DNA of 64,000 bases from Anaerocolumna sp. MB42-C2. GTDB taxonomy: Bacteria > Bacillota > Clostridia > Lachnospirales > Lachnospiraceae. A program made the translations under genes and the position numbers. The stretch is taken from NCBI RefSeq assembly GCF_030913705.1, contig NZ_CP133190.1, positions 2,108,001 through 2,172,000 of the forward strand, read 5' to 3'. The first letter of the stretch is position 1. The number at the start of each line of letters is the position of its first letter. This document shows positions 7,446 through 63,898 of this stretch, piece by piece. The notes under the pieces are model-generated. The model was given only the letters and a program-made list of their open reading frames with translations. It was not told where the DNA came from and searched no databases.

Positions 7446-8369
7446 ATGAAAAAAGAAAAGATATATACGAAAAATAAACGCAGTTTTTTAACCCGGTTAA
7501 AGAATATGACACCAGCCGATATCTTTTATCAGATTTTTGTCTATGTTATTGTGACCGCTTTTGCAGTTATCTGCTTCTATCCATTATTATATGTATTTGC
7601 AATTTCCATTACTCCTTATACGGAATATCTGGAAAATCCCCTTAAATTAATTCCGGGTACCCTCGACTTATCAGCTTATAATAAATTGCTGCATTTGCCG
7701 TTGATTTATTCCGGATACCGGGTAACCATATTCATTACAGTAACAGGAACTTTATTAAATATCTTTTTATTGTGTATCACTGCATACCCTTTATCCAAAA
7801 AAGATTTAAAGGGCAGAAATATTATTCTTGCCCTAATTACCTTTACCATGTTTTTTAACGGCGGATTAATTCCTAATTTTTACATCATCCGCAGTCTTCA
7901 TTTATACGACACCATATGGTCCTTAATACTTCCCGGATGCCTTGGAGCTTATAACTTAATCTTAATGAAAAACTTTATCACAAGCATTCCCGCCAGTCTG
8001 GAAGAATCTGCCTATATTGACGGAGCCACTGAGTTTCAGGTATTATGGAAAATTATTGTCCCTTTATCGAAACCGGCTATAGCAACTTTTGTAATCTTCC
8101 ATGTGGTAAGTCAATGGAATTCCTACTTTAATGCAATCATCTATACAACAAAACGGAGCTTATGGCCATTAATGCTGGTACTGCGTGAAATGGTGGTAGA
8201 TGACGGCATGGCACTTGCCAACCAGTCAACCGCTGCCGATTCATTAATTAATACATATACCTTAAAAATGGCTACTATCATTGTCTGTGTCCTTCCAATA
8301 TTATGTATCTATCCCTTTATGCAGCGCTACTTTACCAAAGGGTTATTAGTGGGTTCTGTAAAGGGTTAA
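7446..8369 (+). CDS. ABC transporter permease, YtcP/LplC-type (CUT1 sugar importer)
   Basis: This 307-residue permease has six predicted membrane segments and the EAA-loop motif EESAYIDGATEF. Its C-terminus KGLLVGSVKG is typical of the MalG/YtcP side of CUT1 importers. It follows its partner permease after 55 bases and precedes a GH130 gene, so the three are probably one operon. The bases of its last codons (8361-8369) can pair with 8418-8426 as part of the structured leader of the next gene. Confidence 0.9.
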   Translation: MKKEKIYTKNKRSFLTRLKNMTPADIFYQIFVYVIVTAFAVICFYPLLYVFAISITPYTEYLENPLKLIPGTLDLSAYNKLLHLPLIYSGYRVTIFITVTGTLLNIFLLCITAYPLSKKDLKGRNIILALITFTMFFNGGLIPNFYIIRSLHLYDTIWSLILPGCLGAYNLILMKNFITSIPASLEESAYIDGATEFQVLWKIIVPLSKPAIATFVIFHVVSQWNSYFNAIIYTTKRSLWPLMLVLREMVVDDGMALANQSTAADSLINTYTLKMATIIVCVLPILCIYPFMQRYFTKGLLVGSVKG

Positions 8370-8468
8370 GACAGGCGGAGATTATTAAAAAAAGAGAAAG
8401 GAGCACCACAGTGGATATTAGTCCTTCGATTTGTGGTGATGCGGATAACTATCCGCAAGTGAGATAAG
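8361..8468 (+). promoter_or_regulatory. Structured leader of the GH130 gene (candidate pseudoknot element)
   Basis: AGAAAGGA (8395-8402) is followed one base later by CACCACA (8404-8410), which pairs with TGTGGTG (8432-8438). Two bases later GCGGAT/ATCCGC (8441-8456) forms a hairpin, and the ATG lies 12 bases beyond. TTAGTCCTT (8418-8426), inside the first stem, can pair with AAGGGTTAA (8361-8369) with two G-U pairs, giving an interleaved fold. The same order occurs before galM and before the sulfatase at 55723. An 18-codon frame beginning with GTG at 8411 and ending at 8467 is also present and could be a leader peptide. Confidence 0.6.
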
Positions 8469-9470
8469 ATGAGTATAATGTTACCGGAATTAAAGTCAAG
8501 TACAGTAATTAAACGGGTAAACCAAGGAGAACCTGTTCTAAGTTCAAAGGATATGCCTTATGAAGCAGACTGTATCTTTAATGCAGGAGTAGTAAAATAT
8601 AAAGACAAATATGTTATGGCTTTCCGGAATGATTATGATTATAATGGTAAAGGCGGTTTTCGTAAATGTTTTATCGGATTGGCTTTCAGTAATGACGGAG
8701 TAAAATGGGACATAAACAAAGAACCTTTTTTAACATCCGCCGATATACATGATCCGGATGTAACCCGGGTATATGATCCACGGTTAACGGTGATTGATGA
8801 TGTATGTTATCTTTGCTTTGCCGTAGATACCAGACATGGAGTCAGAGGCGGAATTGCAGTAACGAAAGATTTAAAAACCATAGAAGTATTATCGTTAACT
8901 GCTCCTGATAACAGGAATATGGTTCTCTTTCCGGAAAAAATAGGCGGTAACTATGTGCGTTTAGAGCGGCCCTTTCCCGTTTATTCAAGAGGCGGAATTG
9001 ACCGCTTTGATACCTGGATTTCCTTTTCGCCGGATCTTCGTTATTGGGGAGATACGAAACTTTTATTAGCTGTTGAACAGGTTCCGTTTGCAAATGACAA
9101 AATCGGCCCGGGGGCACCGCCAATCAAAACAAAAGCAGGCTGGCTTACCTTATTCCATGCAGTAGATATAGACAGGACAAGAGGTAAAAACGGTTGGGAA
9201 GAGAAATGGCAGAAGCGGTATTGTGCCGGAATCATGCTTTTAGATCTGAAAGATCCAACGAAAATTATCGGTTTGTACAAAGAACCATTAATTGCACCGG
9301 AAACCAGGTATGAAACCGAAGAAGGATACCGAACTAATGTCATATTCCCGGGTGGTATGATATTAGAGGACAATGGTGAGGTAAAAATCTATTACGGTGC
9401 CTCCGATACTATAGAATGTCTTGCTACTGCCAATGTTGATGAGTTAATTGCTCTCTGTTTACCCTGCTGA
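8469..9470 (+). CDS. GH130-family mannoside phosphorylase
   Basis: The 333-residue protein carries GH130 motifs: YDPRLTVIDDVCYLCFAVDT, NMVLFPEKI, GPGAPPIKTKAGWLTLFHAVD and FPGGMILEDNGEVKIYYGASD. It would phosphorolyse beta-mannosides taken up by the adjacent importer, releasing mannose 1-phosphate in the cytoplasm. It differs clearly from the GH130 at 1057-2013, so the two probably act on different linkages or chain lengths. The ATG has no normal ribosome site just upstream. The only strong one (AAAGGAG) is about 66 bases away, across two hairpins, which is unusual. Confidence 0.87.
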   Translation: MSIMLPELKSSTVIKRVNQGEPVLSSKDMPYEADCIFNAGVVKYKDKYVMAFRNDYDYNGKGGFRKCFIGLAFSNDGVKWDINKEPFLTSADIHDPDVTRVYDPRLTVIDDVCYLCFAVDTRHGVRGGIAVTKDLKTIEVLSLTAPDNRNMVLFPEKIGGNYVRLERPFPVYSRGGIDRFDTWISFSPDLRYWGDTKLLLAVEQVPFANDKIGPGAPPIKTKAGWLTLFHAVDIDRTRGKNGWEEKWQKRYCAGIMLLDLKDPTKIIGLYKEPLIAPETRYETEEGYRTNVIFPGGMILEDNGEVKIYYGASDTIECLATANVDELIALCLPC

Positions 9471-11874: not shown

Positions 11875-12315
11875 TCATTCTTTACAGTTCTCGGTAACCC
11901 GTAATAAATAATTCTTAAAATTAACAACTTCTTCTTCTGTAAAACCTTTTAATATTCTGAAACTATTCTCTGTGGCGATATCCTCCAGCTCTTTTAACTT
12001 ATCCGTCGCTTTTTTGGTAACCCTGATCAGACAGGATCTTTTGTCCTGGGGATTCAGAACACGTTCGGCCCAGCCCTGCGCTTCCATTCTTTCCAGAATT
12101 CCGGTCATTGTAGGCCTGTCAAATTCCAGCCTTGCTGCAATACAGGCAGGTGATAAACCTAATTCATTATTATTTATTTGATAATAATAAATCTCCTTAA
12201 GTACTGCCAATTGACCGGGCGTTATATCAAATTTACTTAATTTATTAGTAAAGTGACATTTTGCGGACATGGCTGCTCTGTGTAAGATATACCCTATTTC
12301 TTTTTCCCTGTTCAT
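11875..12315 (-). CDS. MarR-family transcriptional repressor
   Basis: The 146-residue protein has the winged-helix MarR fold: SPACIAARLEFDRPTMTGIL is the recognition region, and AERVLNPQDKRSCLIRVT is the wing with the conserved D-R pair. I chose the ATG at 12315 because AGGAGG lies seven bases upstream. A longer frame to 12438 would run through the promoter and operator. It probably represses itself and the MATE gene through the palindrome at 12404-12423. Its leader has two perfect hairpins (12368-12390 and 12333-12352). Confidence 0.9.
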   Translation of the reverse strand: MNREKEIGYILHRAAMSAKCHFTNKLSKFDITPGQLAVLKEIYYYQINNNELGLSPACIAARLEFDRPTMTGILERMEAQGWAERVLNPQDKRSCLIRVTKKATDKLKELEDIATENSFRILKGFTEEEVVNFKNYLLRVTENCKE

Positions 12316-12332
12316 ATTTATACCTCCTGCAT

Positions 12333-12390
12333 AACGCAGACCTGTCTGCGTTACTGCTTTAATAAGTAGTTTGAAAGGAACTTTCAAACT
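12333..12390 (-). promoter_or_regulatory. Two-hairpin leader of marR, degenerate copy of the leader element
   Basis: Read on the - strand, AGTTTGAAAG/CTTTCAAACT (12368-12390, 3-base loop) is followed by AACGCAGAC/GTCTGCGTT (12333-12352), then the ribosome site and ATG. The second hairpin matches those before the genes starting at 55723 and 62672. The middle part with AGAAAGGA and GCCACA seen at 55796-55810 is missing here. Confidence 0.6.
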
Positions 12391-12403
12391 TTTCACCTCT
12401 AAG

Positions 12404-23705: not shown

Positions 23706-23792
23706 AGTGTCAAAAGGTCAATTTTGCGTTTTGAATACCAGCGTATATATATTCATAAAATGCAGATTGAGAGAACTTTTGACACCCTAATC
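23706..23792. repeat. Long imperfect palindrome upstream of galM
   Basis: GTGTCAAAAGGTC pairs with GAACTTTTGACAC. Inside, CAATTTTGCGTTTTGAAT pairs with ATTCATAAAATGCAGATTG. The whole forms one stem of about 35 pairs with mismatches. GATTAGGGTGTC, reading out of one arm, is also found at 2166-2177. A 66-codon frame on the - strand across it is an artefact of the repeat. It may act as a terminator or be a small mobile palindrome. Confidence 0.6.
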
Positions 23793-23896
23793 TTGAAAGA
23801 AAAAAAAGAGAAAGGAAAGCCATAAGATTTTTCAAAATTTTATTAATGGCAGCAATAACACATTCAGGAGCTGATGTGTTATTCGATGGGTGATTT
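23793..23896 (+). promoter_or_regulatory. Structured leader of galM (candidate pseudoknot element)
   Basis: In order: TTGAAAGA (23793-23800), AGAAAGGA (23809-23816), GCCAT (23819-23823), TTTTTCAA (23828-23835), ATGGC (23846-23850), then the perfect 10-bp hairpin AATAACACAT/ATGTGTTATT (23854-23883), then 13 bases to the ATG. The first and fourth segments pair, and the third and fifth pair, so the two helices interleave. The order and spacings match 55741-55832 before a sulfatase gene, with different stem sequences that still pair. Confidence 0.65.
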
Positions 23897-24961
23897 ATGA
23901 AAATAGCCACAGCAAAATCAGGAACATACTTACAGGAGGATATTTATAAATATACCTTATCAAATGATAATAATGTAGAAATATCTGTTCTATCATATGG
24001 AGGAACAATAACTGATATTACAATACCGGATAAAGATTCCGGTTTAAGAAATATTGTTTTAGCTTTGGATTGCTTTGAGAGTTATATCAATAATCCTCTT
24101 TACCCTGGAGCAACTCTTGGTCCTAATGCCGGCCGTTTACAGGATGGAGTTCTTAAAATTGGCAGTAATACCTATCTGCTTAGCAGAAATGACGGGAATC
24201 ATAATCTGCATGGTGGATTTGTTTCGGTTTCTTATATGAATTGGATAAAAAAAGAGATAAAACAGAATAATAACAGCATTTCGCTCACATTATGTACATT
24301 TTTAGAAGACGGGCAGGATGGTTATCCCGGAAACAGACAGATAACTGCAACCTATACATTAGATAATACTGACCGGCTGACTATCGATTATGAAGCATCT
24401 ACGGATAAAGATACTTATTTTAATTTATCAAATCATACCTATTTTAACTTAACCGGTGACCTTAACCATTCCGGTTTGGAACAGATTCTTACCATAAACG
24501 CAGACACCTATATCAGAAACAATTCAGAGCATCTGCCGGTAGAATTCTGCCCTGTTGATGCCAGTCCCTTTGATTTTCGAAGGCCTGTGACCTTACAGGA
24601 GAATCTGCTTCATTATCCGAATCACTCACAGTTAAAAAACTCCAGAGGTTATAATAATGGCTTTGATATACGAAAAGCCGTGGAAAAAGCCGAACCGGTA
24701 CTAAGTCTTTGGAGTCCGGACAAAACCGCAGGGCTCAGAATGTATACTGATGCGCCGTGTCTGGTCGTATATTCCGGAGGCTTTATTGAAAATAGCTATA
24801 AACTGAAAAATGGAATCAAACTAACAAAGAGTTGTGCCTTAGCATTGGAAGCACAGGATTTTCCGGATGTATTTCATTTTGGGGAAAATTTTGTTAAAAT
24901 TACAAGGAAAAAGGAACGTTTCAAAAGAAAAATAACATATGAATTCTTATACCAAACTTAG
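23897..24961 (+). CDS. galM: Aldose 1-epimerase (galactose mutarotase)
   Basis: The 354-residue protein shows the mutarotase signatures: NLHGG with one catalytic His, NLSNHTYFNLTGD with the second, and KSCALALEAQDFPDV with the catalytic Glu. It interconverts alpha and beta anomers of galactose or glucose before phosphorylation, in the cytoplasm. Its position next to the alpha-galactoside operon fits processing of galactose released by GH36. The ATG is preceded only by a weak GGGTG site. A structured leader with an internal AGAAAGGA lies upstream. Confidence 0.9.
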   Translation: MKIATAKSGTYLQEDIYKYTLSNDNNVEISVLSYGGTITDITIPDKDSGLRNIVLALDCFESYINNPLYPGATLGPNAGRLQDGVLKIGSNTYLLSRNDGNHNLHGGFVSVSYMNWIKKEIKQNNNSISLTLCTFLEDGQDGYPGNRQITATYTLDNTDRLTIDYEASTDKDTYFNLSNHTYFNLTGDLNHSGLEQILTINADTYIRNNSEHLPVEFCPVDASPFDFRRPVTLQENLLHYPNHSQLKNSRGYNNGFDIRKAVEKAEPVLSLWSPDKTAGLRMYTDAPCLVVYSGGFIENSYKLKNGIKLTKSCALALEAQDFPDVFHFGENFVKITRKKERFKRKITYEFLYQT

Positions 24962-35850: not shown

Positions 35851-35895
35851 TCATTTAAAACAGTTTATGGAAGTTATCAGAAGTAAGAAATGTAA

Positions 35896-35964
35896 GAAAG
35901 GAGTAGGGACTGCCATAAAATAGCTTATTAAAACAATTTTACAGCAGCCCTGGATAGAAAAATT
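35896..35964 (+). promoter_or_regulatory. Sulfatase leader: hairpin between Shine-Dalgarno site and ATG
   Basis: AGAAAGGAG (35896-35904) is a strong ribosome site but lies about 60 bases before the ATG. Between them AGGGACTGCCATAAAA and TTTTACAGCAGCCCT (35905-35951) form a stem with two mismatches, leaving 13 bases to the ATG. This resembles the leaders at 8395-8468 and 23809-23896 in arrangement, but no interleaved helix or second hairpin was found. Confidence 0.5.
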
Positions 35965-37545
35965 ATGGAATCACAAAATGCGAAACCTAATATTATTATT
36001 GTAATGTCGGATCAACAACGGGCGGACCTACGAAAAAGCAATGGTTACTGTCTGGATACGATGCCCTTTTTAGACAGCTGGAGCTGCGGGGGAGTGGATT
36101 TTAACAGGGCATATACACCCAATCCAACCTGTATGCCGGCCAGAGTCAGTATGTTTACCGGCCGCTATGCAGAATGCCACAAAGTTCGTACAAACCATAA
36201 TGCTATTGATGCATTATATTCAAAAGATCTGTTGGATGTATTTAAGGAAAATGGTTATCAAACAGCCTTGTGCGGGAAGAACCACTCCCATCACGCTCCG
36301 GATGACTTTGACTTTCATGAAATGACAGGACATCTGGGATATGAAGGAGAAATTAACACTTCAAAAGAAGAAATAGAATTTGCAGATTTCCTTTTGAATA
36401 CCAAACATATGGAAACAGATATTCCTTCTCCCGGCGGGTTAGAAGTTCAGCATCCCTACCGCAATGTATCTTCCGCTTTGAAATTCATCGATCAGGCAGA
36501 TAGGGAAGTCCCCTTTTTTGCCTGGGTATCTTTTGCAGAACCTCATAATCCTTATCAGGTTCCGGAGCCTTATTTTAATATGTTTCCGCCGGAGAGTCTG
36601 CCGCCTACAGCAGGAACAGAAAAAAATCTTGACGAAAAGGGAGTGCGCTTTCGCTGGCTCAGGGACAGATGGGAAGATGTGCTGGGAGATAACATTAATG
36701 AACGAATTTTACGCTGCCGTTCAAATTACCACGGCATGCTCAGACTGATTGATGATCAGCTGAAACGCTTAATTGAAGGGTTAAGAGAACGTGACCTGGA
36801 GAAAAACACCATCGTTATCTATGTCTCAGATCATGGAGACTTTGTGGGAGAATACGGACTGATCCGAAAGGGCGCCGACCTTCCTGATATTTTAACCCAC
36901 ATTCCTTTTGTATGGCGGGGTCCCGATATTGTACCCCAGGGAAAACAGACGAATTCTTTTGTAAGCCTGGTAGATATATTGCCTACTTTATGTGACATAA
37001 TTGGCGCCAAGATTCCTTTTGGCTGTCAGGGAAAGAGCATTCTCCCGATTCTTACCAACAAAGAGATACCGGATAAGGAATTTGACTGTGCTTATTCCGA
37101 AAGCGGTTTTTCAGGTTTGTACTGGAATGAGAAAGATGCTCTTACCTTAGAAGCGGAAGGCGCCTCACAAAATATGGTTACCTTTGACTGTCTGAATACC
37201 TGGACCCAGTGCGGTCAGGTAAGAATGCTGCGAAAAGGCGATTACCGGATTCAATTAGATATGATGGGAACAGGATATCTTTATAATGTAAAAGAAGATC
37301 CCGGTGAGCTTGTAAACCTTTGGGATAATCCAGATTATTTTAATCTAAAGACCGACATGTTAACCGAATTAACCGCAGCCATACTCAGAGCCTGTGATCC
37401 GCTTCCGGTACCGCATAACCGGTACCGCACCAAAATCCATCCGAAAGGTTATTGGTTCCAGCCATATGCCAGTGAGGATATGGGAGTACGGAATACCGGA
37501 TCTCTTACGAATATGTTAAATCATATGGAACCTAAGAAATCATAG
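35965..37545 (+). CDS. Sulfatase (Cys-type, type I)
   Basis: The 526-residue enzyme has the CXPXR signature at Cys56 (NPTCMPARVSMFTGRY), whose Cys is converted to formylglycine. It has the metal site MSDQQRAD at the N-terminus and YVSDHGDFVGEYG later. It lacks a signal peptide, so it acts in the cytoplasm on sulfated sugars brought in by the upstream importer. In anaerobes a radical-SAM maturase is needed, and none is in this window. It ends the operon that starts with the YesM-type kinase. Confidence 0.92.
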   Translation: MESQNAKPNIIIVMSDQQRADLRKSNGYCLDTMPFLDSWSCGGVDFNRAYTPNPTCMPARVSMFTGRYAECHKVRTNHNAIDALYSKDLLDVFKENGYQTALCGKNHSHHAPDDFDFHEMTGHLGYEGEINTSKEEIEFADFLLNTKHMETDIPSPGGLEVQHPYRNVSSALKFIDQADREVPFFAWVSFAEPHNPYQVPEPYFNMFPPESLPPTAGTEKNLDEKGVRFRWLRDRWEDVLGDNINERILRCRSNYHGMLRLIDDQLKRLIEGLRERDLEKNTIVIYVSDHGDFVGEYGLIRKGADLPDILTHIPFVWRGPDIVPQGKQTNSFVSLVDILPTLCDIIGAKIPFGCQGKSILPILTNKEIPDKEFDCAYSESGFSGLYWNEKDALTLEAEGASQNMVTFDCLNTWTQCGQVRMLRKGDYRIQLDMMGTGYLYNVKEDPGELVNLWDNPDYFNLKTDMLTELTAAILRACDPLPVPHNRYRTKIHPKGYWFQPYASEDMGVRNTGSLTNMLNHMEPKKS

Positions 37546-51374: not shown

Positions 51375-51545
51375 AACTATGGATTCATTTAGAATAGAAA
51401 ATATTAAAAAGAAAGGAATGCCACAATCGATTCTTTCTGCCTTTATTTATGATAATCGAACAATAGAAAACATGTTTTGTCTGAATCTATTAGTATGTGG
51501 CGTTAACACGTCCGTAAAATGATGTGTTATAAAATGGGTATAATT

Positions 51546-52694
51546 ATGAATGATGAATTATTGAAAAACGAAGCTCCGACCTTAACCTTTGACCCTTTCG
51601 GTGAAGAAACGTCCGAAACTCAATTAGTTAATCAGGAAACGGCAAAACCGGAGGTCGTTGAATTTGATGAAAGTACTCTGTCTCCGGAAGAGCAAAAGAT
51701 GGTTAATGACTTTGCCGGTAAAATTGATTTAACCCAATCAAGTCTTATCCTGCAGTATGGTGTTGGTGCCCAGAAAAAAATTGCAGATTTTTCCGAGTCT
51801 GCCCTTAATAACGTTAAGACAAAAGATTTAGGCGAAATTGGGGAGATGCTTTCCTCCGTCGTATTGGAATTGAAAAGTTTTGATTCCGAAACGGACGAAA
51901 AAGGTTTTTTAGGCTTATTTAAGAAAACCTCCAATAAGATTACCGCTATGAAAGCCAAATATGATAAAGCGGAAGTGAATGTTAATAAAATCTGCCAGGT
52001 ACTGGAGTCACATCAGATGCAATTACTAAAAGATGTAGCCATGTTGGACAAGATGTATGAAATAAATAAAACCTACTTTAAAGAGCTTTCCATGTACATT
52101 TTGGCCGGAAAAAAGAAACTGGCCCTGGTTCAAAACGAAGAACTTCCGAGACTGGTTGAAAAGTCAGGCAGAACCGGTCTTCCCGAAGATGCACAGGCTG
52201 TAAATGATCTAAATGCTATTATAAACAGGTTTGAAAAGAAAATACATGATCTGGAATTAACCAGAATGATTTCTATTCAGATGGCTCCCCAGATTCGTCT
52301 GGTTCAGGGAAATGATACTATGATGGCAGAGAAGATACAATCTACTATTGTAAATACCATACCTCTTTGGAAAAGTCAGATGGTTCTTGCCCTTGGTGTC
52401 GCTCATTCCGGCCAGGCTGCAAGAGCGCAGAGGGAAGTAACCGACATGACAAATGAATTACTTAAGAAAAATGCTGCCACTCTCAAGATGGCCACCATTG
52501 AGACAGCCAAAGAATCGGAACGCGGTATCGTAGATATTGAAACCCTCAAGACTACCAACGAGTCCTTAATTTCAACTCTGGATGAAGTACTCCGCATCCA
52601 GACAGAAGGCCGCCAAAAGAGAAAAGAAGCTGAAGTGGAATTAAACCGTATTGAAAATGAACTGAAACAGAAGCTTTTAAATATGAGAGGGTAA
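51546..52694 (+). CDS. TelA-like toxic anion resistance protein
   Basis: The 382-residue protein is almost entirely alpha-helical, with TelA signatures (ELSMYILAGKKKLALV; RMISIQMAPQIRLVQGND; IPLWKSQMVLALGV). It has no membrane segment. I chose the ATG at 51546; a longer frame to 51519 lacks a ribosome site. It follows xpaC by about 170 bases and probably works with it. A strong terminator follows. Confidence 0.88.
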   Translation: MNDELLKNEAPTLTFDPFGEETSETQLVNQETAKPEVVEFDESTLSPEEQKMVNDFAGKIDLTQSSLILQYGVGAQKKIADFSESALNNVKTKDLGEIGEMLSSVVLELKSFDSETDEKGFLGLFKKTSNKITAMKAKYDKAEVNVNKICQVLESHQMQLLKDVAMLDKMYEINKTYFKELSMYILAGKKKLALVQNEELPRLVEKSGRTGLPEDAQAVNDLNAIINRFEKKIHDLELTRMISIQMAPQIRLVQGNDTMMAEKIQSTIVNTIPLWKSQMVLALGVAHSGQAARAQREVTDMTNELLKKNAATLKMATIETAKESERGIVDIETLKTTNESLISTLDEVLRIQTEGRQKRKEAEVELNRIENELKQKLLNMRG

Positions 52695-54355: not shown

Positions 54356-55723
54356 TCATAGGGACTGCGGCTTAATAACAGGAGCCTTTTCACCTGCATT
54401 TACCATTTCTTCTATTAACTGCTCTGCCAATTTCCTTCTAATTTCTGTATATCTTTTATCATTTACCAGATTATTTAATTCAAATGGATCTTTTCTTAAA
54501 TCATATAGGAAATCTTCTTCATAATAATCACTGCTTCCCGTTTCCCATCCGTCCATTCCGGGTGCATAAACGCTATACAGAAAATCTTCCGTATGGATGC
54601 AGCGGCCCACACGGCTCTCACTGATCTGAGCGAAAACACGGTTAATCCTGCCCAGTATTCTGCCATCCGCCACCATCTTCAGATTCTCTCCTATCATAGC
54701 ATTTTTAACATCTATCCCTGCTAATGCTAAAAATGTTTTCGGAAGACTGCAGGTGCTGACCAATTCTTTTACCCGTTTTCCGCCCCTGAACCCAGGACCT
54801 GCTATGACTAACGGCACTTTTAAACAGGATGAATGGCAGGAACGTTTGTAATCATCACCACCGAGCATATGGGAATCCAGGTTTCTTGTCTTAAAATGCG
54901 ATCCATGATCCGAACTATAGATTATAATCGTATTATCATAGATCCCTTTTTCTTTCAGCTTATCAATAATTCGTCCTAAATTATCATCTAAACTCTTACA
55001 ACACCCAAGATAGTCCGGATACATCTCTTTTGCATCACCGCCAAGGGCCTTTAGATCTCCGGGAAGTTCATAATTATGAAAGCACTCTTTCGAACCAATC
55101 GGCCCTTCATAACATTTTCTATCATTCTGGTGATGGGGTTCAATATGGGATATTGTCAGAAAAAATGGTTTTTCTCCATCATAATAATCTAGATATTCCA
55201 ATGCAAAATCAGTGATACAATCCACGCGGTATCCCTTAAAATCACACCGGTTCATATTTTCATCAAAGACAAACCCGTCATATCCATGGGATGTAAACTC
55301 CAGAACATCTGCAGCTCTCCAGAATCCCTTATATCCTCCCCTTCTTTCAGGGGGAATGGCTTTTGTTTCATAATCAACAACCGACTTTGCTTCATTACTA
55401 TCTTTTTGGCTTGCCAGATGCCACTTTCCCACATATGCCGTATCATAACCGGCTTCATTTAAATAATCCGCTACCGTTTTCACATTAAGAGGCAATGCTC
55501 TGGCATTACGGTAACACTTTATCTCCGTCGGGTACTTACCTGTCTGGAATATTGCCCTGCAAGGTCCGCAGACAGGCTGGGCGGTGTACGCTTCTTCAAA
55601 CAGTACTCCATTCTTTGCCAGACGATCTAAATTGGGACTAATCTCTAATTTCTGTCCGTAACAGCCCAATGTATCTGCTCTTTGCTGATCGGTAAAATAA
55701 AATAAAATATTGGGTCTTTCCAT
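54356..55723 (-). CDS. Sulfatase (Cys-type, type I)
   Basis: The 455-residue enzyme has the CXPXR signature at Cys52 (QPVCGPCRAIFQTGKYP), the N-terminal metal site YFTDQQRADTLGCYG, VGKWHLAS and YSSDHGSHFKTRN. There is no signal peptide, so it should be cytoplasmic and act on sulfated sugar imported by the operon to its right, of which it is the last gene. Cys52 must be oxidised to formylglycine by a maturase encoded elsewhere. It has only a weak GGTG site just before the ATG and a structured leader instead. Confidence 0.92.
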   Translation of the reverse strand: MERPNILFYFTDQQRADTLGCYGQKLEISPNLDRLAKNGVLFEEAYTAQPVCGPCRAIFQTGKYPTEIKCYRNARALPLNVKTVADYLNEAGYDTAYVGKWHLASQKDSNEAKSVVDYETKAIPPERRGGYKGFWRAADVLEFTSHGYDGFVFDENMNRCDFKGYRVDCITDFALEYLDYYDGEKPFFLTISHIEPHHQNDRKCYEGPIGSKECFHNYELPGDLKALGGDAKEMYPDYLGCCKSLDDNLGRIIDKLKEKGIYDNTIIIYSSDHGSHFKTRNLDSHMLGGDDYKRSCHSSCLKVPLVIAGPGFRGGKRVKELVSTCSLPKTFLALAGIDVKNAMIGENLKMVADGRILGRINRVFAQISESRVGRCIHTEDFLYSVYAPGMDGWETGSSDYYEEDFLYDLRKDPFELNNLVNDKRYTEIRRKLAEQLIEEMVNAGEKAPVIKPQSL

Positions 55724-55865
55724 ATTTTACACCAATTGCATATCGCAGGCCTGCCTGCGATACTGCCACATAAAAATAGGTTGAAAGAATCTCCTTGTGG
55801 CTTCCTTTCTATGTTTTATATTTTCTTTCAACTTTTCCTTCATGATGCCGCTTCTGCGGCACCAA
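55724..55865 (-). promoter_or_regulatory. Structured leader of the second sulfatase gene (candidate pseudoknot element)
   Basis: On the - strand, in order: GTTGAAAGAA (55832-55823), AGAAAGGA (55810-55803), GCCACA (55801-55796), TTCTTTCAAC (55789-55780), TGTGGC (55770-55765), then the perfect hairpin TATCGCAGGC/GCCTGCGATA (55762-55741), and 17 bases to the ATG. The first and fourth segments pair over 10 bp and the third and fifth over 6 bp, so the helices interleave as in an H-type pseudoknot. A separate hairpin TGCCGC/GCGGCA lies at 55846-55861. Confidence 0.7.
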
Positions 55866-55897
55866 AAATAATTGGGTAAGAAGCACAGTAATTATTT

Positions 55898-60857: not shown

Positions 60858-62672
60858 TTAATTACTTTCCTGTTCTATCGAAACCACAGGTATATGAATA
60901 TCAACCTGTATCCCGCCCCATTCCGATGTTTTTACTGAGAGGCCATAGCTTTCCCCGAACATCAGCTTCAACCGCTGCTCAATATTCTGTAATCCAATCC
61001 CGTTAAAGCGTTCGCTTACCTGTTCTGTTTCTTTTGATTCCAGTATTTTATGTATTTTTTCTAAATTTCCTCCAACTCCGTCATCAATAACACTGATTAT
61101 AATATCATCTTTCCTGTAACCTGTGATACGAATATGTCCCGTTCTTTCATTTCCGCTAAATCCATGGAGAATTGCATTTTCTACCAAAGGCTGTATTGAA
61201 ATCTTGGGTATTCCATACTTTTCGATCTCAGGATCTATTTGTATTTCCCAGGTAAACATGTCCTGGTACCTGTTCTGCATTAATATGAGGTAGTTTTCGA
61301 TCGCTATGATTTCATCTTTAATCGGTACCAGTTTTCGCTGATCCGAATAGGTTCTTTTCAGCAGCTGTACGAAAGCCAGCAAAGACTGTTCCGCTTTTTC
61401 CGACATTCCCATTTCAACAAGGAACCGGATCGACGCCAGAGTATTATAAAGAAAATGAGGATTGATCTGCGCCTGAAGAGCTCTTAATTCAAGGAGCCGC
61501 TGTTCCTCCTTATTTTTTTCCAGTCGCCCGATTAATTCTTCGATCCGCCCAATCATTTTATTAAATTGAAGACTCAGTTCTCCGAATTCATCCATGGCTT
61601 CTACTTCCGTACGAACACTCAAATCACCTTTATAAACTAATTTCATATCTTTTTTTAATTTTTGTAAAGGTCTGCTGATATACTTGGAATTAAAGACAGT
61701 CATAACCATAGCCAGCAATAAATAAGCAATGGAAGCCATTACCATAAATAAGAGCAAACTATTTCCCGCTAACAATGCAGACTTACCATCATCATATAAT
61801 ACTAATTTCCAACCTGTGGTTCCATTCGTAACAAAACAGATCTGAGATATTTTTCCGTCTATTTTATCCCTGAAATACCCGTATACATTATCATGTAACT
61901 TTTTAAGATAAATCTGAGAAGTAATTCGCTCACCGATTGTTTCCTCTTTGGTACTGGAAATTACCTTCCCGGTATCATCCATTAGAAAGACTTGCTGATG
62001 TTTGTTTTGAAGACCTCTCTTAAGTATCAGATCCAGCATCTTCTGACTTAGGTCTATATTCATCAAACCCACAACCCGCCCACTGTTCAGATTCTTAATA
62101 AGGCAGATAGCCTGAATCGCATTTTCATTCTTCATGGCTGAAAATTCCGTACTCTTCCAGGTAGAAATATATGCGATCCTGTTATCTTCCTTTTTCAGCT
62201 TCGTATACCAGGGTTCCTGCTCTAATTTATGCAAATCGGGATAAGAAATATCGATTGACCTGTCATCAGTTGAAGAATAGTTATATCCGCTGCTACACAT
62301 AATCTGCATATTATATTCGAAACTATTATAAACAATACTGCTGGTTTCAAAAAATTGCCGTACCGAACTCTTAGCCTTTAACTTATCATATTCACTTTTG
62401 TAATTAGTTTTAGATACTATTTTATTTACTTCACGATTACATTGAAAATATCTTGAGTATAAAACAATTTGATCAAACATATCATCCAGATTATTATTTA
62501 TCTGATTTAAAATAACAAGCCTTGACTCATTTATCTGCTGATTCGCCGCACCTTGTATGGAATTAAAAAGTATGATACTCAAAATAATACAAGGGACTAC
62601 AAATAAGACCAAATTAGCGATCAGAATTTTCTTTTGAAACTTTATTCTTTCAAATCTCTGCTTTATATTCAT
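60858..62672 (-). CDS. YesM-type sensor histidine kinase
   Basis: The 604-residue kinase has membrane helices at about residues 17-36 and 305-325, an extracellular sensor domain between them, a HAMP segment, the motif ALQAQINPHFLYNTLASIRF with the phospho-accepting His, and a C-terminal ATPase domain (ISIQPLVENAILHGF; ISVIDDGVGGN). It is the partner of the regulator at 59238. Just before its ATG is a perfect 11-bp hairpin of the leader family. Confidence 0.92.
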   Translation of the reverse strand: MNIKQRFERIKFQKKILIANLVLFVVPCIILSIILFNSIQGAANQQINESRLVILNQINNNLDDMFDQIVLYSRYFQCNREVNKIVSKTNYKSEYDKLKAKSSVRQFFETSSIVYNSFEYNMQIMCSSGYNYSSTDDRSIDISYPDLHKLEQEPWYTKLKKEDNRIAYISTWKSTEFSAMKNENAIQAICLIKNLNSGRVVGLMNIDLSQKMLDLILKRGLQNKHQQVFLMDDTGKVISSTKEETIGERITSQIYLKKLHDNVYGYFRDKIDGKISQICFVTNGTTGWKLVLYDDGKSALLAGNSLLLFMVMASIAYLLLAMVMTVFNSKYISRPLQKLKKDMKLVYKGDLSVRTEVEAMDEFGELSLQFNKMIGRIEELIGRLEKNKEEQRLLELRALQAQINPHFLYNTLASIRFLVEMGMSEKAEQSLLAFVQLLKRTYSDQRKLVPIKDEIIAIENYLILMQNRYQDMFTWEIQIDPEIEKYGIPKISIQPLVENAILHGFSGNERTGHIRITGYRKDDIIISVIDDGVGGNLEKIHKILESKETEQVSERFNGIGLQNIEQRLKLMFGESYGLSVKTSEWGGIQVDIHIPVVSIEQESN

Positions 62673-62730
62673 ATTTTACACCCATTGCATATCGCAGACC
62701 CGTCTGCGATATTGCCACAAATAAGATCCC
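62673..62730 (-). promoter_or_regulatory. Hairpin leader of the sensor kinase gene, partial copy of the leader element
   Basis: On the - strand TGTGGC (62719-62714) is followed by ATATCGCAGAC/GTCTGCGATAT (62712-62689), then GCAATGGGTGTAAAAT and the ATG. The part after TGTGGC is nearly identical to 55770-55724. No partner GCCACA or first helix is present, so it is a truncated copy. Confidence 0.6.
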
Positions 62731-62737
62731 TTTTTGT

Positions 62738-63898
62738 TTAATCCTTGTCCCTTTGTATGCTAATATTTTTCTGTTCCAATCGTCTTTTTATAAATTTGTC
62801 CAGCAGGTAGGTAAATACGGCTATTACGGGAACCGCTAAAAACATCCCTATTACTCCCGCATAAGCGCCGCCTAAGGTAATGGCAAATATGATCCAGAGA
62901 GGCTTTAACCCTGTTGATTCCCCCAGAATTCTAGGCCCCAGATACAATCCGTCAAACTGCTGAAGAATTAATATCATAACGATAAAAATCAGACATTGAA
63001 TCGGATTAAGAAAAAGATAAATTACAACCCCCGGAACTGCACCGATAAATGGCCCAAAATAAGGTATCATATTGGTTATCCCAACAATGACACTCATTAA
63101 TATGGGATATGGCAGTCTGAGTAAGATCATTAATATCACGCATATTATGCCAATCAACAGGGAATCAATCATTTTACCTACAATAAATTTATTAAAAATA
63201 TCGGCACAGTCTTTCCCCGTCTGTATGAACCCTTTTGCCCTGTCCGAGGGCATAATAGAATAAATAAACCGCTTGGCATTATACCTCAGATTTTTCTTAT
63301 CCAGTATCATATAACAGGAAATAACAATGGAGAGCAGAATATTAACGAACATTTTAATTAATGATATGGATAATAAGTATAATTTCGGTATCATATTACT
63401 TAGTACCTCTGTTCCCCTGCCGATTAAATCCGGTACCATTTTATCAATATACGTAACGACTGCCCCTAGATTTAAATCTGGATATCTCTCATATAAACCG
63501 GAGATCCATTTTGTAATTTCATCATAAATTAAGGATTGTTTTGAAACAATATCAGAAATACTCTGAATGAGCTGTGGGGTCACATATAAGATTGTAATGG
63601 TTAAACCTCCAATGACTAACAGATAAGAAATAAATATTGATAAAAAGGCTCTTGCCGCTCTGGATTTTATCCTTAAAACCTTCAAAGAAAAATCCTGGAG
63701 TTTTAATACCAATGGATTAATTATAAAGGCAATCAAGAAAGCAGCTAAAAAGGGGGATATGGTATTCAAAAAATCCGAAATAACCAATTTTGTCTGTTTC
63801 ATATTTACAAAGGAATAAATGATAAAAGCCCCCGTTACTATAACAAAAAGTGCATAAATACTGATAGTGAGGTAATTCCTATTTGACTGAAACTGCAT
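62738..63898 (-). CDS. AI-2E family transporter (PerM-like membrane protein)
   Basis: The protein of at least 386 residues has about eight membrane segments and the AI-2E family pattern (LAAFLIAFIINPLVLKLQDF; YPILMSVIVGITNMIPYFGP; GAYAGVIGMFLAVPVIAVFT). Substrates in this family vary (autoinducer export, Na+/H+ antiport) and cannot be read here. ATG 63898 has AAAGGAA seven bases upstream, but the frame stays open for 34 more codons to the window edge, encoding a charged extension, so the true start may lie outside. It precedes the kinase gene on the same strand and may be co-transcribed. Confidence 0.8.
   Translation of the reverse strand: MQFQSNRNYLTISIYALFVIVTGAFIIYSFVNMKQTKLVISDFLNTISPFLAAFLIAFIINPLVLKLQDFSLKVLRIKSRAARAFLSIFISYLLVIGGLTITILYVTPQLIQSISDIVSKQSLIYDEITKWISGLYERYPDLNLGAVVTYIDKMVPDLIGRGTEVLSNMIPKLYLLSISLIKMFVNILLSIVISCYMILDKKNLRYNAKRFIYSIMPSDRAKGFIQTGKDCADIFNKFIVGKMIDSLLIGIICVILMILLRLPYPILMSVIVGITNMIPYFGPFIGAVPGVVIYLFLNPIQCLIFIVMILILQQFDGLYLGPRILGESTGLKPLWIIFAITLGGAYAGVIGMFLAVPVIAVFTYLLDKFIKRRLEQKNISIQRDKD

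Follow-up and report, generated by a model that had tools for sequence, protein, structure and literature searches.

The sulfatase gene at 54356-55723 (minus strand) of the window, the whole 64,000-nt stretch of Anaerocolumna sp. MB42-C2 DNA analysed here, is preceded by a structured leader that runs up to and includes its start codon. A sequence-only reading had placed three such leaders in the window, before this gene, galM and a GH130 gene, each sense to its gene, and their positions and orientation were confirmed. The order of parts is S1 5′ arm, loop 1 with (A)GAAAGG, S2 5′ arm, S1 3′ arm, S2 3′ arm, S3, about 15 nt, ATG; helix S1 encloses the motif AGAAAGGA (the core) and S2 crosses S1, a predicted H-type pseudoknot. 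Copies in the window and their parts, with the source of each assignment in brackets, are as follows.

55721..55837, minus strand: full type I element before the sulfatase gene (model R1 126.9 bits, E 1.2e-22; Pfam Sulfatase)
55823..55832, minus strand: sulfatase copy, S1 5′ arm GTTGAAAGAA, partner of 55780-55789 (sequence)
55803..55810, minus strand: sulfatase copy, AGAAAGGA, the Shine-Dalgarno-like core, placed by prediction in loop 1 of the pseudoknot (sequence; anti-SD duplex energies of the region across copies)
55796..55801, minus strand: sulfatase copy, S2 5′ arm GCCACA (sequence)
55780..55789, minus strand: sulfatase copy, S1 3′ arm TTCTTTCAAC (sequence)
55765..55770, minus strand: sulfatase copy, S2 3′ arm TGTGGC, crossing S1 (sequence; S2 covariation across copies)
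55740..55763, minus strand: sulfatase copy, S3 hairpin GTATCGCAGG/CCTGCGATAT (sequence; covariation across copies)
55730..55733, minus strand: sulfatase copy, weak start-proximal GGTG, 6 nt before the ATG at 55723-55721 (sequence; proximal motif counts)
23787..23899, plus strand: full element before galM (aldose 1-epimerase, 23897-24961) (R1 44.0 bits, E 6.3e-6; Pfam Aldose_epim)
23809-23816, plus strand: galM copy, core AGAAAGGA (sequence)
23819-23823 and 23846-23850, plus strand: galM copy, S2 GCCAT/ATGGC; its S3 arms are 23854-23863 and 23874-23883 (sequence)
8361..8471, plus strand: divergent element before the GH130 gene (8469-9470) (structural pattern scan; Pfam Glyco_hydro_130)
8395-8402, plus strand: GH130 copy, core AGAAAGGA; its S2 is CACCACA 8404-8410 / TGTGGTG 8432-8438 (sequence)
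8440-8446 and 8451-8457, plus strand: GH130 copy, S3 TGCGGAT/ATCCGCA (sequence)
51384..51548, plus strand: fourth full element, before a TelA-family gene (start 51546) (structural scan; R1 42.8 bits; Pfam)
51410-51417, plus strand: TelA copy, core; its S2 is 51420-51425 / 51496-51501, with a long loop 3 (sequence)
12313..12393, minus strand: short type II copy (simple S1 hairpin and S3, proximal AGGAGG) before a MarR-family gene (R1 49.3 bits; Pfam MarR)
62670..62776, minus strand: 5′-truncated copy before a histidine kinase gene, S3 and tail retained (R1 57.4 bits; Pfam)
35870..35967, plus strand: possible divergent relative before a second sulfatase, with AGAAAGGA at 35895-35902 (sequence, by eye)

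The second arm described previously (S2: GCCACA/TGTGGC, GCCAT/ATGGC and CACCACA/TGTGGTG) and the last hairpin were exact in all three leaders, whereas the first arm (S1) was clear in the sulfatase copy, moderate in the galM copy (about 8 bp with one wobble, by eye) and weak in the GH130 copy (only about 5 bp, by eye). The GH130 copy was also absent from the R1 matches at E≤0.01, and on these two grounds is the weakest of the three. Three was moreover an undercount, since a fourth full copy, a short copy and a truncated copy are present in the window; in the truncated one (62670-62776) core and S1 are unrecognisable and the match overlaps the end of the upstream open frame by 39 nt. Before the second sulfatase (35870-35967), AGAAAGGA lies 62 nt upstream of the ATG, an imperfect S2-like helix (AGGGaCTGC/GCAGcCCT) but no S3 could be seen by eye, and the proximal SD energy is −3.1, hardly any site; this leader was not among the R1 matches, and is possibly a relative lying outside that model. 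Immediately 5′ of the sulfatase copy (55838-55882, minus strand) is an upstream module seen also at L030, L035, L040 and L018, a GATGCCGC/GCGGCATC hairpin with TTCTTCC...ATTATTT on its 5′ side, which resembles the tail half of another element.

The leader had been described as shared by three unrelated genes; the genes are unrelated, but about a hundred in this genome carry it. R1, a covariance model built from 11 copies with S1 and S3 entered as pairs and S2 left unpaired, gave at least 126 matches at E≤0.1 in the whole MB42-C2 genome (6,437,239 bases, one contig; best 150 of 8015 candidates scored), and 110 matches at E≤0.01 in stretches taken from it (100 source stretches; L186 and duplicate copies left out, second copies of three tandem pairs not included). 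The pattern AGAAAGGAN{0,4}GCCACA occurred 21 times in the same genome, compared with 0 occurrences of a reversed control pattern.

Copies were anchored at start codons. Of the 110, 105 had their end precisely where a sense reading frame begins, 97 of these frames being at least 80 aa long; because R1 and the further model R2 contain ATG columns, an ATG at the end of a match is in part a product of the models, but the long frame after it is not. Counted over all copies, 102/110 frames reached 80 aa and 8/110 fell below it. In relatives, 68/75 distinct copies (75 distinct of 98 matches) were likewise anchored at a start codon. Downstream genes in the window were, by Pfam, sulfatase, aldose epimerase, GH130, TelA, MarR and histidine kinase, and the ten downstream proteins submitted for NCBIfam naming were pyrH, dxr, mnmE, nusB, rbfA, ribF, miaA, accC, ligA (frame cut by the locus end, score below its curated NCBIfam cut-offs) and ispF. 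The genes named have no common pathway, other downstream proteins being known by their first residues only. In 44/110 copies a sense open frame of 80 or more codons lay upstream, with its stop no more than 60 nt before the element or overlapped by it; many copies therefore likely lie inside operons, which favours a role at the level of RNA.

In the 84 of 110 copies that could be parsed for geometry, the core was followed by S2 after 0–3 nt in 75, S2 touched S3 in 63, and the end of S3 lay 13–18 nt from the ATG in 72, this tail being outside the modelled helices. Loop 3 and S3 varied in length, and even the two orthologous leuD copies (L029/L111) differed in that one had an extra loop-3 hairpin and the other did not. 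The linear distance from core to ATG was 67–129 nt (median 84; 84/110 copies); with S2 and S3 subtracted it was a median of 17 nt (IQR 16–18, full range 5–32). Two copies of other genomes, L232 (G164) and L242 (G066), had no S3 by eye, S2 being followed after 11–17 nt by the ATG and a hairpin lying in loop 3 instead; the effective distance in L242 was about 13 nt (counted by eye). S3 was rejected as a transcription terminator, there being no U-run after it. A common 5′ extension was also rejected as part of the element: the 45 nt preceding the element fold to below −6 kcal/mol in 53/110 copies, but by eye these sequences belong to several different repeat types.

All three helices covaried, as expected of the selected RNA fold, possibly a pseudoknot, that had been proposed from the three leaders. 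Across the 110 copies, 91% of paired cells were standard pairs, and 23/27 pairs had changed on both sides (368 cells, compared with a shuffled mean of 129; 0/500 shuffles). When partners were slid by one to three columns, standard pairs dropped to 35–47%. The crossing helix S2, which was not fitted by the alignment model, showed double changes in 3/6 pairs. An alignment-free exchange of arms between copies (89/110 copies) gave energies for own and swapped arms of −11.2 and −8.8 kcal/mol in S1, −8.3 and −7.7 kcal/mol in S2, and −13.7 and −7.2 kcal/mol in S3, each with 0/2000 permutations, although the copies are related and the p-values are consequently not independent. Paired substitutions were also seen by eye between orthologous copies (11 aligned pairs), in S1 and S2 of L156/L121 and in S3 of L034/L124 and pepD (L003/L085). 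In other genera S2 was kept with unrelated letters (for example GCAAACACA/TGTGTTTG and TGCCAAAGG/CCTTTGGCA, by eye), and the whole architecture was kept with unrelated helix letters in L239, L240, L242, L228 and L079 (by eye). Both stems of the predicted pseudoknot in the 5′ leader are thus backed by covariation, and that the structured leaders form one RNA family is well supported.

The core resembles a ribosome-binding site, and its strength was compared with that of the sequence next to the ATG. The anti-SD letters used for all duplex energies are those we take to be the usual 16S tail, to the end of which AGAAAGGA is complementary; two patterns for the 16S tail, GGATCACCTCCTT among them, gave 0 matches in the MB42-C2 genome, the 16S 3′ ends being probably masked or left out in the sequence searched. 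In equal 20-nt windows, the mean anti-SD energy over 102 element genes (the 102/110 copies with frames of at least 80 aa) was −9.0 in loop 1 versus −5.9 before the ATG, and −4.3 for shuffled loop 1. The first comparisons had favoured the loop, with a window of 30–34 nt against 20 nt for the proximal region, but the contrast persisted with equal windows. Control ORFs from the window (n = 35) had a proximal median of −9.3 (p = 8e-4 versus the 89 element genes having the core), a contrast that is conservative in that GH130 and a wrong start at 51519 were left among these ORFs. In strength the loop-1 site roughly equalled, and did not exceed, the sites that ordinary genes have of their own (35 control ORFs, p = 0.07). 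Near the ATG, GGTG was found in 59/110 copies and GGTA in 33/110.

Where the core was lacking, the start-proximal site tended to be stronger. The core was missing from 13/102 own copies, and these had stronger proximal sites on average than those with it (−7.9 versus −5.6, p = 0.005). Type II copies are short, with S1 a plain hairpin, without the core and the S2 5′ arm, and with S3 kept; AGGAGG stood near the ATG in 7/12 of them. Between type I (15 copies, other genera) and type II (12 copies: 9 other genera, 3 own; label assigned by eye, L245 left out because its position was wrongly recovered), proximal means were −5.6 versus −10.2 (p = 0.0016) and loop-region values −10.2 versus −4.0, with no overlap (p = 1e-5), although type II is not uniform, 1/12 having a weak proximal site (−3.9) and three lying near −7. 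The strong putative ribosome site, as judged from predicted duplexes, therefore tends to occupy one of two places, the pseudoknot loop or the start-codon region.

Further copies in relatives were abundant. The element was found in 15/15 genomes of the genus searched (3 to at least 60 matches each) and in 1/46 other relatives searched. Exact-pattern matches came from Anaerocolumna sedimenticola, Anaerocolumna sp. AGMB13025, Clostridium sp. KNHs205 and MAGs, and also from Robinsoniella peoriensis (8/47 stretches), while a Xenorhabdus exact-pattern match had neither S1 nor S3 by eye and was taken as chance. A Lachnospiraceae-wide scan with R2 found the element in at least 22/397 genomes and at least 20/334 genera (best nine candidates per genome scored); in a class-wide sample of 391 genomes, the only matches were those in MB42-C2 itself and a marginal one (E 8.5e-4).

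The leader had not been matched to any riboswitch class, and Rfam agrees: there were 0 matches in the window at gathering score, and at 8 other element loci the only match was RNase P RNA, outside the element. A class A RNase P RNA gene lies at L225:621-965 (plus strand), near one element copy in genome G216. Two low-threshold Rfam matches were unrelated to the element. The element is outside every Rfam family tested, and is a candidate new RNA family for that database. The preQ1 and SAM-II riboswitches also place an H-type pseudoknot near a Shine-Dalgarno site; the present element differs from them in having no Rfam match, no common pathway among the named genes, and its core in loop 1. No copy of the element turned up in a scan of viral contigs with one exact pattern or in blastn searches of plasmids and phages with one element copy, and a phage or plasmid carrier was accordingly rejected; neither in these searches nor in Rfam was there a match to a known transposable palindrome. 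No published description of the leader was found in a literature search by abstracts, subscription papers being mostly outside it.

The family also behaves as a mobile repeat, being present or absent at the same gene in different species, a behaviour that the earlier reading had set aside. For pyrH, the element was present in MB42-C2 (G000), in G006 and, in a different version, in G008 (12/13 orthologs shown, partial ones left out); among the other nine shown, six had a plain GGAGG directly after the upstream gene and three had other hairpins with an AGGAG-like site. G000 and G006 carried it before mnmE, where G011, G012 and G014 had a reduced hairpin form (11/12 orthologs shown); before dxr it occurred in G000 only (12/13 orthologs shown). 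The reduced mnmE form (L208 in G011, L210 in G014, L211 in G012) reads GAAAGGATGCC...GGCAGAATGAAAG; in it S1 is absent and S2 closes a very small loop. Orthologous genes without the element usually had an ordinary Shine-Dalgarno site. Only 11/75 copies of relatives preceded a gene whose relative has the element in the G000 list, and the element genes shared with G000 numbered 6/10 in G006, 3/21 in G010 and 0/8 in Robinsoniella. Many scattered copies and presence or absence between relatives are dispersal features of an interspersed repeat, and the element has likely been gained and lost between species, to judge from these comparisons; empty sites were too diverged, by eye, for its ends to be defined. 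Tandem copies occurred at L127, L051 and L157 (own genome), L225 and L243 (G216, possibly Robinsoniella) and L092 (AGMB13025), the G216 junction running from GCAATGGGT directly into ATAAGGTTGAAAG. At L135, L168, L013, L014 and L029 other repeat modules lay directly 5′ of copies, for example a GCCCATaaagcATGGGC hairpin ending in GTTAGTGTGA; the S1 arm likewise begins with GTTAGTGTGA, and in L135 the same motif stands on both sides of the module.

We favour, at a probability of roughly 0.6, the reading that the leader is a recurrent element of three covarying helices, with a predicted H-type pseudoknot and stacked hairpin, that provides a split ribosome-binding site, the fold bringing the loop-1 AGAAAGGA next to the start codon. 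The leader would be transcribed together with its gene and would fold in the cell; S1 would hold the core single-stranded in loop 1, and S2 stacked on S3 would fold out the intervening sequence and so bridge the gap. The anti-SD tail of the 30S subunit could then pair with AGAAAGGA, perhaps also with the proximal GGTG, before reaching the ATG. The element would moreover spread as a mobile repeat, its own ribosome-binding site taking the place of the gene's native one. That the leader might position a distant Shine-Dalgarno-like site had been suggested previously, and the start-codon anchor and the stronger predicted site in the pseudoknot loop fit this. Structure-bridged split ribosome-binding sites are known from a few phage genes, as far as the source text sets out: in T4 genes 25 and 38, structure between SD and AUG cuts their distance from 22 to 5 nt and from 27 to 11 nt (PMC3014915). 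The element resembles these in having its stronger SD far upstream of the AUG, with a conserved helix between; it differs in that theirs are single phage genes, whereas here, in Lachnospiraceae, each genome has some hundred copies of a mobile element whose predicted pseudoknot and hairpin span 67–129 nt. A T4-type split initiation region, for which genes 25 and 38 are the working precedent, is the favoured analogy for how the element may work. The T4 structures bring SD and AUG to 5–11 nt, however, while the effective median of the element is 17 nt (84/110 copies). This gap is the main weakness of the split-site reading: with an effective spacing of about 17 nt, against a usual 5–11, simple bridging would not be optimal unless the proximal GGTG also pairs.

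The same spacing is an argument for a standby or loading element, in which pseudoknot and AGAAAGGA catch the 30S subunit upstream and the subunit then relocates to a weak proximal GGGTG without being held there by the fold. This is the closest rival to the split site, and in our estimate an unlikely one. The recurrent proximal (A/G)GGTG or GGTA about 6 nt from the ATG speaks for it, as does the precedent of tisB in E. coli, for which the available text of the source describes a 5′UTR pseudoknot needed for 30S binding, together with a single-stranded stretch some 100 nt 5′ of the ribosome site (PMC7708055). The two have in common a pseudoknot, here a predicted one, in the 5′ leader; tisB acts via protein S1 and standby, with its proximal site sequestered, and differs in not being described there as a repeat family. 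Standby leaves unexplained the contact of S2 with S3 and the small variation of the linkers, and also the other-genus copy L242, which has hardly any proximal site (−1.5). Less probable again is a regulatory switch responding to ligand, protein or temperature, in which TTCTTTC of the S1 3′ arm pairs with either the S1 5′ arm or AGAAAGGA and so exposes or hides the ribosome site. TTCTTTC is indeed complementary to both, its pairing with the core averaging −5.8 compared with −3.9 for shuffled cores, and S1 covaries at its top but is little varied in its lower part; the alternative, however, pairing shows no covariation (own −5.76 versus swapped −5.85), and S1 is the more stable of the two in 76/83 parsed copies (of 110). 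A single ligand is hard to see where the named downstream genes span unrelated pathways, and the ligand-binding leader that had been offered as an alternative is accordingly unsupported.

The reading to which we give least weight, as very improbable, is that the element is a selfish interspersed repeat of BOX- or MITE-like kind whose structure serves its own spread, the copies at start codons being merely survivors of tolerated insertions. High copy number, tandem copies, presence or absence between species, the mosaic with other intergenic repeats and the few shared insertion genes (11/75) are what it would produce, and BOX, RUP and SPRITE in Streptococcus pneumoniae are likewise many interspersed structured repeats, some of them expressed (PMC3049150). 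Those elements are read as parasitic, however, and in the part of that paper drawn on here are not described as start-codon anchored or as carrying a gene's ribosome site. Against a purely selfish repeat stand the 105/110 copies whose end coincides with the beginning of a sense frame, the paired substitutions that persist in orthologous copies, and the strong site occupying one of two places in type I and type II. A selfish origin does not exclude a split-site function. The TAACTGA repeats of Beggiatoaceae also lie, in many copies, just upstream of the start codons of functionally unrelated genes; ordinary SD sites are rare in these genes and a post-transcriptional role has been proposed (PMC4679880). 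They differ, as that source presents them, in being direct repeats of a short heptamer and in having little SD character.

A bolder form of the split-site reading, which we hold only tentatively, is that the element is a mobile, self-contained ribosome-landing cassette: its pseudoknot would split an extended SD helix into the loop-1 AGAAAGGA and the GGTG before the ATG, and it would hop between genes, overwrite native sites and, within one genus, now drive initiation at some hundred genes, of which several are normally essential. Were it true, it would amount to a bacterial counterpart of the IRES that spreads like a repeat. The roughly one hundred natural variants form a library for measuring how structure between a Shine-Dalgarno site and a start codon sets initiation, and the family would be an example of ribosome-binding sites being replaced by mobile DNA with no harm apparent. 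If the split-site reading holds, a mobile RNA family of high copy number would apply the principle known from those phage genes to some hundred genes of this organism, pyrH, dxr, nusB, rbfA, accC and ligA among them.
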